Below are positions 16,399-23,361 of a stretch of 64,000 nucleotides of DNA, in pieces (position 1 is the stretch's first letter; each line of letters starts with the position of its first letter). Location: contig JAMXLO010000111.1 in NCBI GenBank assembly GCA_024280945.1, forward strand, positions 1 to 64,000, written 5' to 3'. The stretch comes from Acetobacteraceae bacterium. Lineage in GTDB: Bacteria; Pseudomonadota; Alphaproteobacteria; Acetobacterales; Acetobacteraceae. A program made the translations under genes and the position numbers. The notes below the pieces were generated by a model that was not told the DNA's origin, searched no databases, and saw nothing but the letters and a program-made list of their open reading frames with translations.

Positions 16399-17181
16399 AT
16401 GGCCAACTTTACCCTTCCCTCGAACAGCCGCATCGGCCTTGGCAAGGATTGGAAGGCGCCCGCCGGTGCGAAGCGCGTGCGCGAGTTCCGCATCTATCGC
16501 TGGTCTCCCGATGACGGCCAGAACCCGCGCACTGACACGTATGAGGTGGATCTCGATACCTGCGGCCCGATGGTTCTCGACGCACTGATCAAGATCAAGA
16601 ACGAGATCGACCCGACGCTGACCTTCCGTCGCTCCTGCCGGGAAGGCATTTGCGGCTCCTGCGCGATGAATATCGATGGCGGCAACACGCTCGCCTGCCT
16701 GAAGCCGATCGAGGAGGTGACGGGCGCGGTGCGCATCACGCCGCTGCCGCACATGCCTGTGGTGAAGGACCTGGTGCCGGATTTGTCGCAGATCTATGCG
16801 CAGTTGCGCAGCATCGATCCGTGGCTGAAGACGGACAGCCCTGCGCCGCCGGACGCTGAACGATTGCAAAGTCGCGAGGAACGGGCGGAACTGGACGGTC
16901 TATGGGAATGCATCCTGTGCTTCTGCTGCTCTACCGCCTGCCCCAGCTATTGGTGGAACGGTGATCGCTACCTCGGCCCCGCGGTGCTGCTGCAGGCGTA
17001 TCGCTGGATTGCCGACTCGCGTGACGAACGGACCGGCGAACGCCTGGATTCACTGGAGGACCCATTCAAGCTGTATCGCTGCCACACCATCATGAACTGC
17101 ACCGACACGTGCCCGAAGGGATTGAACCCCGCCAAGGCGATCGGTGCCATCAAGCAGCTGATCGTGGAACGACAGGTTTAA
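16399..17181 (+). CDS. sdhB: succinate dehydrogenase iron-sulfur subunit
   Basis: 260 residues with all three cluster motifs. The 2Fe-2S ligands are C80, C85, C88 and C100 (CREGICGSC...C). The 4Fe-4S and 3Fe-4S clusters share [12 protein letters not shown] (C171, C174, C177, C181) and [14 protein letters not shown] (C228, C234, C238). It carries electrons from FAD to the quinone site. Its TAA (17179-17181) directly abuts the stop codon of the convergent metH, leaving no intergenic DNA for a terminator. Confidence 0.98.
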
Positions 17182-20100
17182 TCAGACAGAAAAATACTTC
17201 GCGTTCGGATTGAGCACTACGATCGCGCTGGTGGACTGCTCCGGGTGCAGCTGGAACTCTTCGGACATCGACACGCCGATGCGCTCTGCGCCGAGCAGCG
17301 ACAAGATCGGCGTCTGGTCTTCCAGCCGCGGACACGCCGGGTATCCAAACGAATAGCGCGAGCCGCGATAGCCCTGCGCCAGCATCTTATCCATGTCGCG
17401 ATCATCTTCCGCGGCGAAGCCGAGTTCCGCGCGGATGCGCTTGTGCACGTATTCCGCCATCGCCTCGGCCATCTCCACCGACAACCCGTGCAGATAGAGA
17501 TAGTCCTGATAGCGATTGTCCTCGAACCACGCCCGCGCGGTCTCCGACGCCTTCTGTCCCACCGTGACCACCTGCAAGGCGATCACGTCGCGCTCGGCGT
17601 CATCGACGTCACGGAAGAAGTCGGCGATGCATTCGCCGTCTTCCTTCGGCTGGCGCGGCAGCGTGAAACGGGCCAGCTCCGTGCTGCCATCCTGATCAAA
17701 TATGATCAGATCATTGCCCTGCCCTGCGGCGAGCCAATAGCCATACGCGGCCTGCGGCTTCAGAATGTCTTCTGCTTCGCATATAGCCAGCATGCGCCGC
17801 ATCACCGGACGCAGTTCCTGCTTTGCCCAGCCCAGGAAATCCTCCAGCGAGCGCCCCTGTTTCCGGAAGCCCCACTGGAACTGGTACAGGCTGCGCTCGT
17901 TGACGAACGGCACGATCGCTTTCGGGGCAGCCTCGATCACCCGCGCACCCCAGAACGGCGGCGCCGAGACCGGCACGTCGCGCGTCAGCCGCCGGCGCCG
18001 CGCCTGCACCGTGCCGACATCCACCGGCCGAAATGCGCGCGCGTCGGCCTGGCCCAGCGTGCGTGACGTGTTGCGCGCCTTGCCGGTCCGCTTGGCCTGG
18101 ATTGCAGCGAGATAGTCGTCGAACGCGTTGCCGGTCACCTTGTCCATCAGATGCAGTCCGTCGAACGCATCGCGCGCATAGGCGACGCGGCCACAGGCAT
18201 AAGCCTGGACGCAGGCGTCTTCGACATAGGTGCGGGTCAGCGCCGCGCCGCCAAGCAGCACCGGCACCTCGAGCCCCTGGCGGGTCATCTCTTCCAGGTT
18301 CTCGCGCATGACGACGGTTGATTTCACCAGCAGTCCCGACATGCCGATGGCATGCGCCTGGTGCTCCTTCGCCGCCGCCAGCATGTCGGTCAGCGGCACC
18401 TTGATCCCGAGATTGACAACGCGATAGCCGTTGTTGGTCAGGATGATGTCGACCAGGTTCTTGCCGATGTCGTGCACGTCGCCCTTCACCGTGGCGAGCA
18501 CGATCGTGCCCTTCTCCTGGCCTTCGACGCGCTCCATGAACGGCTCGAGATACGCCACCGCCGTCTTCATCGTTTCGGCGCTCTGCAGCACGAAAGGCAG
18601 CTGCATCTTGCCGGCACCGAACAGATCGCCCACTACCTTCATGCCGTCGAGCAGCACGTTGTTGATGATGTCGAGCGGCGACAGTGACTTCAGCGCTTGG
18701 TCCAGGTCCTCGGTCAGCCCCTTGCGGTCGCCATCGACGATGCGATCCTTCAGCCGGCCTTCCACCGTGTCGGCGCGCTTCTTGGCGGTGGCATCCGCCG
18801 CCTTGCGATCAGCAAAAATCTCCAACATGCGCTGCAGCGGATCGTAGCCATCCGAACGGCGGTCAAAGATCAGGTCCTCGGCGACCTTCACCTCCTCCGG
18901 CGCGATCATATGCAGCGGCCGGATCTTCGACACATGCACGATCGCGCCGGTCATTCCGGCGCGCACCGCGTGGTCGAGGAACACGCTGTTCAGCACCGCC
19001 CGCGCCGCCGGGTTCAACCCGAAGCTGACGTTCGACAGGCCGAGAATGATCTGGATGTCGGGGAATTCGGCGCGGATCGCGGCGATGCCTTCCAGCGTCC
19101 ACAACGCCAGCTTGCGATCGTCCTCGTTGCCGGTGGCGATGGTGAAGGTCAGCGGGTCGATCAGCAGATCCGACTGCGGCAGGCCATGGCGATTGCAGGC
19201 GAAATCCACCAGCCGTCGCGCGACTTCGAGCTTGCGTTCCGCGGTCTTCGCCATGCCGGTCTCGTCGATCGTCAGCGCGATCACCGCTGCGCCGAACTGC
19301 TTTGCCAGCTGCAGGCGATCCGCCGCGTGCTGCTCGCCATCCTCGAAATTGATCGAATTGATGATCGGCTTGCCACCGTGCAGCTTCAGCGCCGCCGCGA
19401 TCACCGGCGTTTCCGTGCTGTCGATCACCAGCGGCGCGTTCACAGACGAGGTGAAGCGACGCACGACTTCGGTCATCTCCGCCATTTCATCACGGCCGAC
19501 GAATGCGGTGCAGACATCGAGCGCGTTGGAGCCTTCGCCCAACTGCTCGCGACCCATCGACACGCAGCCGTCCCAGTCGTGGCGCTCCTGCAAATCACGC
19601 CATTTCTTCGAACCATTCGCATTGCAGCGTTCGCCGATGGCAAAGAACGCGTTCTCCTGCCGCAGCGGCACCGACTGATAAAGACTGGCGACCGATGGCA
19701 CCCAGACAGAGTTCCGCTGGACCGGGGTCGGGCGGTTATCGCCGCGCCGACGCAACATCGCATCGAGGGCCGCGATGTGCTGCACGTTGGTGCCGCAGCA
19801 GCCGCCGATCAGGTTCACACCGTCCTGTTCGACGAAGCGCTCGAGCCACGTCGTGAGATCAGCCGGCGTCAGCGGAAAGTGTGTCTGGCCATCGACAAGT
19901 TCCGGCAGCCCGGCATTTGGCTGCACCGACAGCAGGCCCGACCAACTGCCGGACAGCCAGCGGATATGCTCCGCCATTTCCTGCGGTCCGGTGGCACAGT
20001 TTAGCCCCATCAGCGGCACATCGAGCGCATTGACGATCGCCGCAGCGCTGGCGATGTCCGGGCCGACCAGCAGGGTACCCGTGGTCTCCACCGTGACCTG

Positions 20101-20667
20101 CACGAAGATCGGAATGTCGCTGCCGGCCTCGGCGCGCGCAATCTTGGCGCCATTGACCGCCGCCTTGATCTGCAGCGGGTCCTGGCAGGTCTCGATCAGG
20201 ATCGCATCGACGCCGCCGGCGATCAGGCCACGGCACTGTTCCGTCAGCGCCGCTTCCAAGGGGTCGTAGGCGATATTGCCGAGAGTGGGCAGTTTGGTGC
20301 CCGGGCCGACACTGCCGAGTACCCAACGATGCCGGCCATCGCTGAACTGACCCGCGGCCTCGCGCGCCAGTTCGGCGCCGCGCCGGTTGACTTCGAAGGC
20401 GCGGTCCGCAATGCCGAATTCGCCCAGCGTGATCGGCGAGCCGCCGAATGTGTCGGTCTCCACCATATCGGCGCCGGCCTCGAAGTAGCCGCGGTGCAGT
20501 TCGCGCACCAGGTCGGGCCGTGTCAGACACAGAATATCGGTGCAGTTCTCCTTGCCGAGAAAATCGCGCTCGATGTCCAACGGCATCCCGAGAATGCGCG
20601 TGCCGATGGCACCGTCGCACAGCAGCACCCTCTCTCGCAGCACATCGAGCAGGTGGGGTCGGGCCAT
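17182..20667 (-). CDS. metH: cobalamin-dependent methionine synthase
   Basis: 1161 residues, a full-length MetH. The order is a homocysteine-binding barrel (zinc cysteines in GLNCATGP about 222 and GGCCGT about 287), a pterin/folate-binding domain (from about 355, containing VIDSTETPVIAAALK and INSINFEDGE), a helical cap (LDGMKVVGDLFGAGKMQLPFVLQ), the B12-binding domain with DVHDIGKN (His about 730), and the SAM-dependent reactivation domain (YRGSRYSFGYPACPRLEDQ). It transfers methyl from 5-methyl-THF to homocysteine. ATG 20667 gives MARPHLLDVL; further upstream codons overlap the deaminase gene, whose stop is one base away. It is the last gene of the sahR-like/deaminase/metH operon. Confidence 0.97.
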   Translation of the reverse strand: MARPHLLDVLRERVLLCDGAIGTRILGMPLDIERDFLGKENCTDILCLTRPDLVRELHRGYFEAGADMVETDTFGGSPITLGEFGIADRAFEVNRRGAELAREAAGQFSDGRHRWVLGSVGPGTKLPTLGNIAYDPLEAALTEQCRGLIAGGVDAILIETCQDPLQIKAAVNGAKIARAEAGSDIPIFVQVTVETTGTLLVGPDIASAAAIVNALDVPLMGLNCATGPQEMAEHIRWLSGSWSGLLSVQPNAGLPELVDGQTHFPLTPADLTTWLERFVEQDGVNLIGGCCGTNVQHIAALDAMLRRRGDNRPTPVQRNSVWVPSVASLYQSVPLRQENAFFAIGERCNANGSKKWRDLQERHDWDGCVSMGREQLGEGSNALDVCTAFVGRDEMAEMTEVVRRFTSSVNAPLVIDSTETPVIAAALKLHGGKPIINSINFEDGEQHAADRLQLAKQFGAAVIALTIDETGMAKTAERKLEVARRLVDFACNRHGLPQSDLLIDPLTFTIATGNEDDRKLALWTLEGIAAIRAEFPDIQIILGLSNVSFGLNPAARAVLNSVFLDHAVRAGMTGAIVHVSKIRPLHMIAPEEVKVAEDLIFDRRSDGYDPLQRMLEIFADRKAADATAKKRADTVEGRLKDRIVDGDRKGLTEDLDQALKSLSPLDIINNVLLDGMKVVGDLFGAGKMQLPFVLQSAETMKTAVAYLEPFMERVEGQEKGTIVLATVKGDVHDIGKNLVDIILTNNGYRVVNLGIKVPLTDMLAAAKEHQAHAIGMSGLLVKSTVVMRENLEEMTRQGLEVPVLLGGAALTRTYVEDACVQAYACGRVAYARDAFDGLHLMDKVTGNAFDDYLAAIQAKRTGKARNTSRTLGQADARAFRPVDVGTVQARRRRLTRDVPVSAPPFWGARVIEAAPKAIVPFVNERSLYQFQWGFRKQGRSLEDFLGWAKQELRPVMRRMLAICEAEDILKPQAAYGYWLAAGQGNDLIIFDQDGSTELARFTLPRQPKEDGECIADFFRDVDDAERDVIALQVVTVGQKASETARAWFEDNRYQDYLYLHGLSVEMAEAMAEYVHKRIRAELGFAAEDDRDMDKMLAQGYRGSRYSFGYPACPRLEDQTPILSLLGAERIGVSMSEEFQLHPEQSTSAIVVLNPNAKYFSV

Positions 20668-20668
20668 G

Positions 20669-21706
20669 CTAATTCCTCGGTGCGGCTGAAAGTCGGCGGT
20701 CGGCGACGTAGGCGTCCAGTCGCGCGACATGATTTGCTATTTCTGCTGAGGGCAGGAAGCTCGCAGTCAGGCTGTTGCGCGCAAGCGTGACGATCTGGTC
20801 ATCCGACAACGCAAGAGCATCGCGGCACTCGATGAAGTTGTCGTTGACATAGCCAGCGAAGTACGCCGGATCGTCCGAGTTCATCGAGACGTTCAGCCCG
20901 GCTTCCAGCATCGCGCGCAATGGATGTGCCGCAAGCGACGGCACCACATTGAGCCGCAGGTTGGAAAGCGGACAGACAGTGAGCGGCGTCTGGCGTTCCG
21001 CCAATAGGCGCACCAGCGTCGGATCGCTCATGCAGGCGACACCGTGATCGATACGGTCAATCTGCAGCAGGTCTGCCGCTTCGCGCACATACGAAGCTGG
21101 CCCCTCTTCGCCGGCATGCACGGTGATACGGAAGCCTCGCTCGCGGCAGGTGCGGAAGTAGCGCGCGAAGCGTGACGGTGGATTGCCCACCTCTGCGCCA
21201 CCCAGACCAAACCCGGCGATCTGTTCGGCCCACGGCATGACGGCGTCCAGCAGCTGCAACGCCTCGGCCTCGCTGCGATGGCGCTGCGCGCTGACCAGTA
21301 GACCGGCGCTGATGCCATCGTTTCGTGTCGCGTCGCGTATGGCGGCCAGGACACCGTCCATTACCGCTTCTATCGCAATGCCGCGCTCGGTGAAGCTCTG
21401 CGGACCAAGGAAAAGCTCGGCACGAACCACGGCGTCTGAGTGCGCACGGCGCAAATAGGCGTGGGTGATGTCGTAGAAGTCGCGCTCCTGCATCAGCACG
21501 CGACAGCCCTCGTAATACAGATCGAGGAAGGCTTGCAGATTGCGGAAGCGGTATGCGCCGCGCAGTGCCTCCGGTGTTTCCCAGCGCGGACGCAGGCCAT
21601 TGCGCGCCGCGAGCTCCAGCAGCAACTCAGCCTCGATGCTGCCTTCGAGGTGCATGTGCAACTCGGCCTTCGGCATGCAGCGGATGAATGCGTCGGGATC
21701 GGCCAT
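20669..21706 (-). CDS. add: adenosine/adenine deaminase family protein
   Basis: 345 residues of the metal-dependent purine deaminase family. The zinc ligands are H17 and H19 (HMHLEGS), a histidine in HAGEEG, and the Asp of NSDDPAYF; HGVAC supplies the catalytic His. The enzyme hydrolytically deaminates adenosine to inosine, or adenine to hypoxanthine. The DDPAYF variant, rather than a DDPxxFGT form, is what I associate with the adenine-deaminase branch, so adenine may be the true substrate; this is inferred. The start codon directly follows the stop of the sahR-like gene (TGA-ATG) and its stop is one base before the metH start, so the three genes are translationally coupled. Confidence 0.9.
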   Translation of the reverse strand: MADPDAFIRCMPKAELHMHLEGSIEAELLLELAARNGLRPRWETPEALRGAYRFRNLQAFLDLYYEGCRVLMQERDFYDITHAYLRRAHSDAVVRAELFLGPQSFTERGIAIEAVMDGVLAAIRDATRNDGISAGLLVSAQRHRSEAEALQLLDAVMPWAEQIAGFGLGGAEVGNPPSRFARYFRTCRERGFRITVHAGEEGPASYVREAADLLQIDRIDHGVACMSDPTLVRLLAERQTPLTVCPLSNLRLNVVPSLAAHPLRAMLEAGLNVSMNSDDPAYFAGYVNDNFIECRDALALSDDQIVTLARNSLTASFLPSAEIANHVARLDAYVADRRLSAAPRN

Positions 21707-22666
21707 TCACATGACCAGTTCACGCGGCGGCGCCACCGGCGCCTGTGCGGCGGCCGTCGCCGGCCAGAGTTGGATGCTGAGCGGTCCATGGATCGTCACT
21801 GGTGACGCCGGGCTCATGCCAACGCCTTGCAACAGACCCTGCATCGCCTCGTCGCTGAACCCAGGCCAGCGGTGCGCCAGTCGGGTCAGCAGCTCATCGC
21901 GCTCATGCTGTGCCAGGTCGATGACAATCAATTGCCCGCCAGGTTGCAGCACGCGCGCAACTTCGGCCAGCACGCCGGGCGGGTCCTCGGCGTAGTGCAG
22001 CACCATCTGCAAGACGGCCAGATCGAACGACGCGTCCGGAAACGGCAGGCGATACATGTCGGCCAGCCGCACAGAACAGTGGTCCAGGCCAGCCCGCGCG
22101 AGCCGCGCCCGGGCCAGCGCCAGCATGGCCTTGGAAGCATCGACCCCGATCCCTTGGCTGATGCGCGGCGCCAGCAGTTCCAGCACGCGTCCCGTACCGG
22201 TGCCGATGTCCAGCAGCCGGCCGGCGTGCTGTTGCGGCACCAAGTCGAGCAGCGCCGTCTCCACCGCAGTCGCCGGCAGATCGAGCGCCCGCATCTCGTC
22301 CCAATCGGCGCCCTGTCGTCGGAAGCTTTCTGACGCCACGCGGGCCCTCTCGGCCAGCACGCGGGCCGCCTGCCGACGATCGGCATCAAGCACCGGATCG
22401 CCGTCCGGCAGCCGTGCCACGAGATCGCGCGCCAGCGAGCCTGCCTCCCCATGGGGCAGGGCAAACCAGGCATTGGCGCCCTCGCGGACCCGTTCGAGCA
22501 GTCCGCAGTCACACAACAGCTTCAGATGGCGTGACAGACGGGGCTGCGACTGGCCAAGGATCTCGGTGAACTCCGAGACGCAATAGGCGCCCCGCGCGGC
22601 CAGCGCCAGGAGCCGAAGGCGGGTCGGCTCGGCAGCGGCACGCAGACTGGTCAGCAGAGCGTCCAT
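21707..22666 (-). CDS. sahR: SahR-like ArsR-family regulator with C-terminal methyltransferase domain
   Basis: 319 residues from ATG 22666. Residues 1-75 are an ArsR-type winged helix (AAEPTRLRLLALAA, then SQPRLSRHLKLL recognition helix). Residues about 145-270 are a class I SAM-dependent methyltransferase fold with the binding loop LLDIGTGTGR at 151-160. SahR repressors, known from comparative genomics and tested in Desulfovibrio, have this architecture, sense S-adenosylhomocysteine with the methyltransferase-like domain and control SAM-cycle genes. Being first in an operon with metH fits that role. A TTG at 22675 is an alternative start. There are no metal-binding ArsR cysteine motifs of the ArsR/SmtB type, so a metalloregulator is less likely. 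Confidence 0.85.
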   Translation of the reverse strand: MDALLTSLRAAAEPTRLRLLALAARGAYCVSEFTEILGQSQPRLSRHLKLLCDCGLLERVREGANAWFALPHGEAGSLARDLVARLPDGDPVLDADRRQAARVLAERARVASESFRRQGADWDEMRALDLPATAVETALLDLVPQQHAGRLLDIGTGTGRVLELLAPRISQGIGVDASKAMLALARARLARAGLDHCSVRLADMYRLPFPDASFDLAVLQMVLHYAEDPPGVLAEVARVLQPGGQLIVIDLAQHERDELLTRLAHRWPGFSDEAMQGLLQGVGMSPASPVTIHGPLSIQLWPATAAAQAPVAPPRELVM

Positions 22667-22677
22667 CGGCTCCAAAT

Positions 22678-22699
22678 GACATAAACATATCCTTATGTC
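22678..22699. promoter_or_regulatory. palindromic operator upstream of sahR-add-metH
   Basis: A 22-bp imperfect palindrome: left arm GACATAA (22678-22684), right arm TTATGTC (22693-22699), with a symmetric ATAT at the centre; 18 of 22 positions are symmetric. It sits 12 bp upstream of the regulator's ATG and overlaps the predicted -10 box and transcription start, the expected place for an autorepressor site. It is the best operator candidate in the window and most likely bound by the adjacent SahR-like protein. Confidence 0.75.
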
Positions 22700-22720
22700 C
22701 AGTTATCCCAATGCATCAAG
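22692..22720 (-). promoter_or_regulatory. putative promoter of the sahR-add-metH operon
   Basis: Read on the minus strand, CTTGAT (22720-22715) and CATAAG (22697-22692) are spaced by 17 nt. The -10 box overlaps the palindromic operator, so repressor binding would block RNA polymerase. The leader would be short (about 20 nt). The call is from motif and spacing only. Confidence 0.5.
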
Positions 22721-22770: not shown

Positions 22771-23361
22771 ATGCGCGTCCTGGTCATCTATTGCCATCCC
22801 GTGGCGGAAAGCTTCGCCGCATCGGCGCATCGGACGGTGCTGGAGGCGCTGGCCGAAGCCGGCCACGAGGTCACCGAGGTCGATCTCTACGCCGAACGCT
22901 TCGATCCGGTGATGAGCCGGCAGGAGCGCCTGGAGTATCTCAATACCGAGCGCAACGAGCGCCTGGTGCAGCGCTATGACGACCAACTCGCAACTGCCGA
23001 AGCGCTGGTGCTGGTCTACCCGTCCTGGTGGTACGGCATGCCGGCGATGCTGAAGGGCTACTTCGATCGCGTCTGGCTGCCTGGGGTGGCATTCGACGTC
23101 ACGCCGGACGGCAAGGTGAAGACCGATCGGCTGAGGCAGCTACGGCGTATCCTGGTGGTGACAACCTATGGCGCCTCTTGGTCGATGGTCCGGCTCGTTC
23201 TCGGCGATCCGGCGCGCAAGCTGATCGGCCGGGCGATCCGCGCGCTTTGTGCGCGTGGATGCCGCGTGACCTGGTGCGTTCACTATAAAATGGACCGAGC
23301 CCGACCACCGGAATTGCGGTGGTTCCTGCAACGCATCCGTCAGGCTACGCTGCGACTGTAA
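22771..23361 (+). CDS. NAD(P)H quinone oxidoreductase / flavodoxin-fold protein
   Basis: 196 residues with the NQO1/KefF/MdaB-type flavodoxin fold. MRVLVIYCHPVAESFAASAHR is the FMN/FAD phosphate-binding start, followed by the ALVLVYPSWWYGMPAMLKGYFDRVWLPGVAF flavin-site segment. Such enzymes reduce quinones by two electrons with NAD(P)H. The C-terminal 40 residues are basic and less conserved. It is divergent from the sahR operon, and the regulator's palindrome lies about 72 bp from its start, so co-regulation is possible but not shown. Confidence 0.9.
   Translation: MRVLVIYCHPVAESFAASAHRTVLEALAEAGHEVTEVDLYAERFDPVMSRQERLEYLNTERNERLVQRYDDQLATAEALVLVYPSWWYGMPAMLKGYFDRVWLPGVAFDVTPDGKVKTDRLRQLRRILVVTTYGASWSMVRLVLGDPARKLIGRAIRALCARGCRVTWCVHYKMDRARPPELRWFLQRIRQATLRL

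Follow-up and report, generated by a model that had tools for sequence, protein, structure and literature searches.

A SahR-type regulator with its own conserved operator heads an operon of an adenine-deaminase-like gene and metH in an Acetobacteraceae genome

Introduction

Which signal governs metH in this Acetobacteraceae genome, where the gene lies in a cluster headed by an ArsR-type regulator fused to a methyltransferase fold? The same fusion characterizes the SahR regulators of Alpha-/Deltaproteobacteria (Novichkov et al. 2014; Leyn et al. 2014, PMC4239095), which are SAH-responsive, recognize a 20-bp palindrome, have sahR, ahcY, metH, metF and metK as core targets, and were reported in seven of nine Rhodospirillales genomes (PMC4239095). 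Genes of the SAM cycle such as ahcY are under the control of SahR but not of SamR (PMC4239095), and autoregulation of SahR is supported in Ensifer (PMC8877191). A sequence-only reading of the 64-kb window, by which we mean the whole stretch of DNA that was analyzed, had proposed a SahR-type SAH sensor that binds an operator before its own gene and controls SAM-cycle genes. We find the SahR identity, the operator and the control of SAM-cycle genes supported by conservation of the operator and by the genome-wide set of sites (before sahR-metH, ahcY and metE). The gene is very probably sahR, encoding a repressor that acts on its own operon and on the methionine/SAM cycle. The domain architecture, the operon, the conserved operator, the genome-wide site set and the co-occurrence of sahR with ahcY sites were observed directly; DNA binding, repression and the response to SAH are what we infer, the last two from membership of the SahR family.

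Results

The regulator gene and its operon

The locus comprises the following genes:
21707..22666, minus strand: sahR, ArsR-type winged helix plus class I methyltransferase fold, 319 aa, assigned from domain matches and the orthologue-aligned start ATG 22666
20669..21706, minus strand: deaminase (ade) of the adenosine/adenine deaminase family, adenine-deaminase-like (PF00962, E 9e-84)
17182..20667, minus strand: metH, cobalamin-dependent methionine synthase (TIGR02082), start ATG 20667 from orthologues
16399-17181, plus strand: convergent gene downstream, by reading the iron-sulphur subunit of a succinate dehydrogenase
22771-23361, plus strand: divergent flavodoxin-fold NAD(P)H oxidoreductase gene upstream of sahR, starting 72 bp from the SahR operator

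The proposed fusion of an ArsR winged helix to a SAM-methyltransferase fold was borne out by domain searches of the regulator open reading frame (21707-22675, minus strand), which matched PF01022 (ArsR HTH) at residues 17-61 (E 7e-11) and Methyltransf_11 (PF08241) at residues 155-251 (E 3e-27). As listed, this frame starts at TTG 22675; because every orthologue begins at the residue corresponding to its Met-4, we place the start of sahR at ATG 22666. Its position as first gene of an operon with the deaminase and metH likewise holds: the three genes share a strand, and since their junctions abut (sahR TGA|ATG deaminase) or leave a single base (deaminase TAG-C-ATG metH), we regard them as a tight operon. 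MetH scored 1219 bits against TIGR02082 (cut-off 1011), with all domains present. The divergent oxidoreductase gene has a counterpart in the genus's other genome (L003, 83%) and was seen at none of the remaining relatives' sahR loci. No Rfam element was found in the 64-kb window, so the sahR operon and metX carry no known SAM/SAH riboswitch.

The deaminase within the operon

The sequence-only reading had called the middle gene a purine deaminase; the family assignment (PF00962) stands, and comparison with solved structures sharpens it to adenine-deaminase-like. Its nearest solved relatives are Pa0148 of Pseudomonas aeruginosa (PDB 3ou8, E 4e-96; also 3pan, 3pao and 3pbm) and 3rys (E 6e-95), which we take to be an adenine deaminase. 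Homology to both is full-length, with the HxHLEG, HAGEEGP and SDDPAYF motifs aligned. Adenine deamination by Pa0148 has been reported (Goble et al. 2011, cited in PMC6281700). From its sequence, the window's enzyme thus resembles adenine deaminases such as Pa0148 more than adenosine deaminases, and adenine is its predicted substrate; it differs from Pa0148 and 3rys in being encoded within a sahR-metH operon.

If the enzyme instead acted on adenosine, it would pull the AhcY equilibrium forward, and the operon would dispose of both compounds that SAH hydrolysis yields. Functionally this is an attractive scheme, adenosine being a product of AhcY, and NCBIfam does name the protein an adenosine deaminase (NF006850, TIGR01430). 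Other adenosine deaminases, however, matched at E 1e-36 or weaker, leaving Pa0148 and 3rys ahead by some 60 orders of magnitude in E-value, and the genome encodes an MTA phosphorylase as a source of adenine, so that we consider action on adenosine rather doubtful. No clear SAH nucleosidase was found among the genome's phosphorylase-family matches.

Few members of the family carry the gene: at E <= 1e-40 it occurs in 10 of the 150 genomes. It adjoins sahR or metH in none of the other nine genomes that carry it and lies within the sahR operon at none of 80 GTDB loci; the nearest relative found (G102, 63% identical) sits beside a phenylacetate-CoA-ligase-like gene. The genus's other genome (assembly 73% complete) has sahR adjoining metH, with no deaminase between them. 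As the operon position is absent from all other genomes examined, the adenine-deaminase-like gene was probably inserted in this lineage and, lying inside the operon, should share its control.

A conserved operator before sahR

22678-22699, minus strand: SahR operator GACATAAGGATATGTTTATGTC, 22 bp, a 42.5-bit match, conserved in the family

The letters of this palindrome are exactly those given in the earlier reading, and it lies just 5' of the start codon. With a matrix built from the operators of 23 relatives, the window's own site being left out, it scored 42.5 bits, and the next best match in the 64-kb window reached 2.5 bits. The earlier reading would have been undermined by a palindrome that is not conserved before orthologous operons; the block T-R-GACATAA-RGATATCT-TTATG was instead found just 5' of the start codon in 24 of 24 family orthologues, the window's included, and the operator is conserved in 73 distinct Acetobacteraceae promoters. 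Scanning 854,421 bases around 73 Acetobacteraceae sahR loci returned 71 matches of at least 12 bits, every one of them (71/71) proximal to sahR.

Among 80 GTDB sahR loci, 76 have the Acetobacteraceae arrangement, with the site 32-37 bases before the ATG in 74 of these 76; it was not found before sahR at locus L180, and the second locus without a site, L187, has almost no upstream sequence to scan. In Azospirillum-like genomes the site lies 67-106 bases upstream of sahR, and the gap from sahR to metH is about 1.9 kb. Two of the 74 Acetobacteraceae-type operators, those at L172 and L174 (some 34 bp from sahR), have intact arms and a GC-rich center (GACATAAAGCGGGCTTTATGCG), which suggests that the center of the operator is read less strictly than its arms.

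Further probable targets in the genome

Three operator-type sites were identified in the genome, before sahR (42.5 bits), ahcY and metE:
C110:10594-10613: ahcY site, 19.0 bits, 68 bases before the gene
C17:10732-10751: metE SahR-type site, 24.7 bits, directly 5' of a cobalamin riboswitch
G000:C17, L143:4010-4252, minus strand: tandem of metE site and riboswitch

With three mismatches allowed, the strict operator pattern matched only the sahR site in the 6.42-Mb genome; the ahcY and metE sites came from a relaxed pattern. Two further relaxed-pattern matches with three mismatches, on C33 and C115, were set aside because their scores (-9.4 and 0.7 bits) are at chance level.

In the fetched loci, the ahcY site was present in 14 of 14 Acetobacteraceae that have both sahR and ahcY, 56-175 bases upstream, and in none of five sahR-negative Acetobacteraceae; these genomes share ancestry and are not independent trials, and the agreement is complete. 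No site precedes ahcY in G002, which encodes a sahR-like protein 43% identical to SahR. SAM-cycle targets of the kind expected for SahR, including metH and ahcY, are thus in place. In a matrix scan, neither metK nor the two intact metF copies of the genome (L132, L133, L137) showed a site, so the regulon here is smaller than the published core, in which both targets are common but not defining. Sites before metF were seen in family members G005 and G019, and in ten other alphaproteobacterial families metF lies directly downstream of sahR, as SahR predicts.

The cobalamin riboswitch (RF00174) before metE scored 122.7 bits. Riboswitch control of metE is known in itself; what differs from that plain arrangement is the SahR-type site directly 5' of the element, an order that recurs in other Acetobacteraceae (L265, L267, L268, L270, L272, L280 and L287). 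We infer that expression of metE takes two conditions, a repressor off its site (SAH high) and low B12. A SahR-like gene, 43% identical, is divergent from metE in G002, G031 and G033 (G002:C1:312010-315298, G031:C17:30076-33824, G033:C23:30617-34147), where close SahR is absent; in G002, a 33.6-bit site lies between this gene and metE.

The likely ligand

The SAM/SAH-pocket motifs D153-x-G155-x-GTG, D176 and D203-M204 are invariant in our protein alignment (A1), and no cysteine that could form a conserved metal site is invariant across seven diverse SahR orthologues; the methyltransferase fold is therefore the likely sensor. Sequence alone cannot separate SAH from SAM, and we favor SAH because the regulon includes ahcY, following the argument of PMC4239095. 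Release of SahR from DNA by SAH would accordingly be a property expected from family membership.

SamR of Xanthomonadales offers a precedent for the converse, a protein that senses SAM or the SAM:SAH ratio with SAM as co-repressor: it is a distant SahR homologue that adjoins metH, and its effector is itself a proposal (PMC4239095). The intact pocket motifs would suit either ligand. We nevertheless consider SAM sensing unlikely, since the site set includes ahcY and not metK, the authors' criterion for dividing SAH from SAM sensing (PMC4239095), and the window protein shares 42-54% identity with its SahR relatives from other families of the Alphaproteobacteria. Identity with SamR itself was also considered and rejected: the 24-bp ATC-N10-GAT motif is, by reading, absent from the operator, and an ahcY site is present.

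Still less probable, to the point of being very hard to sustain, is a plain sensor of metals or redox state, of the ArsR/SmtB type, with an incidental methyltransferase domain, as the metalloregulator label of NCBIfam (NF033788) on the N-terminal part might suggest, given a family without an invariant cysteine and sites that all precede SAM-cycle genes. A palindrome that arose by chance or serves a structural role, with no tie to the regulator, can practically be dismissed, for although the window holds nine perfect 7+8+7 inverted repeats, so that the evidence for the operator lies in conservation and not in symmetry, family members share the sequence and position of the palindrome, and its occurrence goes with that of sahR.

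Predicted geometry of the sahR promoter

The earlier reading had also placed a CTTGAT-N17-CATAAG promoter at the operator. These letters are present, but they are not conserved, with the -35 columns carrying 0.02-0.24 bit in the 73 distinct promoters. The same alignment points to different elements:
22697..22702, minus strand: predicted -35 box CTGGAC, which shares bases with the left arm of the operator, with CTR-GAC conserved on one side of the palindrome
22673..22678, minus strand: predicted -10 element CATTTG, 17 bp from TGGACA, with A (93%) and T (82%) conserved at +22/+23

Across the 73 promoters the left operator arm is intact in 93% and the right in 58%; outside the palindrome, the conserved letters are CTR to its left and AT to its right, and upstream of CTR-GAC the information falls to less than about 0.4 bit. 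Such additional constraint on a single side is consistent with a -35 box CTRGACA that lies in the left arm and is separated by a 17-bp spacer from a weak -10 element. For comparison, the alphaproteobacterial -35 box is CTTGAC. A repressor on the operator is predicted to cover both promoter elements.

From the predicted promoter, transcription of sahR would start at or beside ATG 22666, giving a leaderless mRNA. A leaderless start agrees with the use of ATG in 73 of 73 sahR promoters, with the nearly fixed distance from operator to ATG (32-37 bp) and with the family-wide absence of a Shine-Dalgarno sequence before sahR (mean duplex energy -0.2 kcal/mol, versus -4.0 before metH and -1.2 in shuffled sequence). 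The window's sahR is a partial exception, with GGAG three bases before the ATG.

Discussion

The locus belongs to a true SahR regulon, of a type that earlier work has documented in Rhodospirillales as well. It shares with the published regulon (PMC4239095) the fusion protein, a palindrome of about 20 bp before the regulator's own gene, and metH, ahcY and metE as targets; it differs in having no metF or metK site, with metF outside the operon, and in the adenine-deaminase-like gene between sahR and metH. What is new here is small, namely the deaminase insertion, the geometry of promoter and operator, and the tandem of SahR site and riboswitch before metE.

In the mechanism we propose, the ArsR domain of SahR would bind the palindrome that fills its own promoter and shut off sahR-ade-metH, and would also bind the sites before ahcY and metE. 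When methyltransferase activity raises SAH, the ligand would occupy the methyltransferase-fold domain and SahR would leave the DNA, allowing SAH hydrolase and the methionine synthases to be made, together with the adenine-deaminase-like enzyme in this lineage. We hold it about an even chance that the full picture is correct, in which an adenine-deaminase-like gene was captured between sahR and metH in an SAH-controlled operon, purine salvage is co-induced with methionine regeneration as methylation by-products accumulate, and a leaderless promoter has its -35 box inside the operator.

These results put the Rhodopila/Acidisphaera side of the Acetobacteraceae firmly on the map of SahR regulons and yield a sharp family-wide operator. 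The operon provides a probable example of how a regulon changes when a gene is inserted into an autoregulated operon, and the metE promoter, with its SahR site and cobalamin riboswitch, a testable two-input switch that would respond to SAH and B12.
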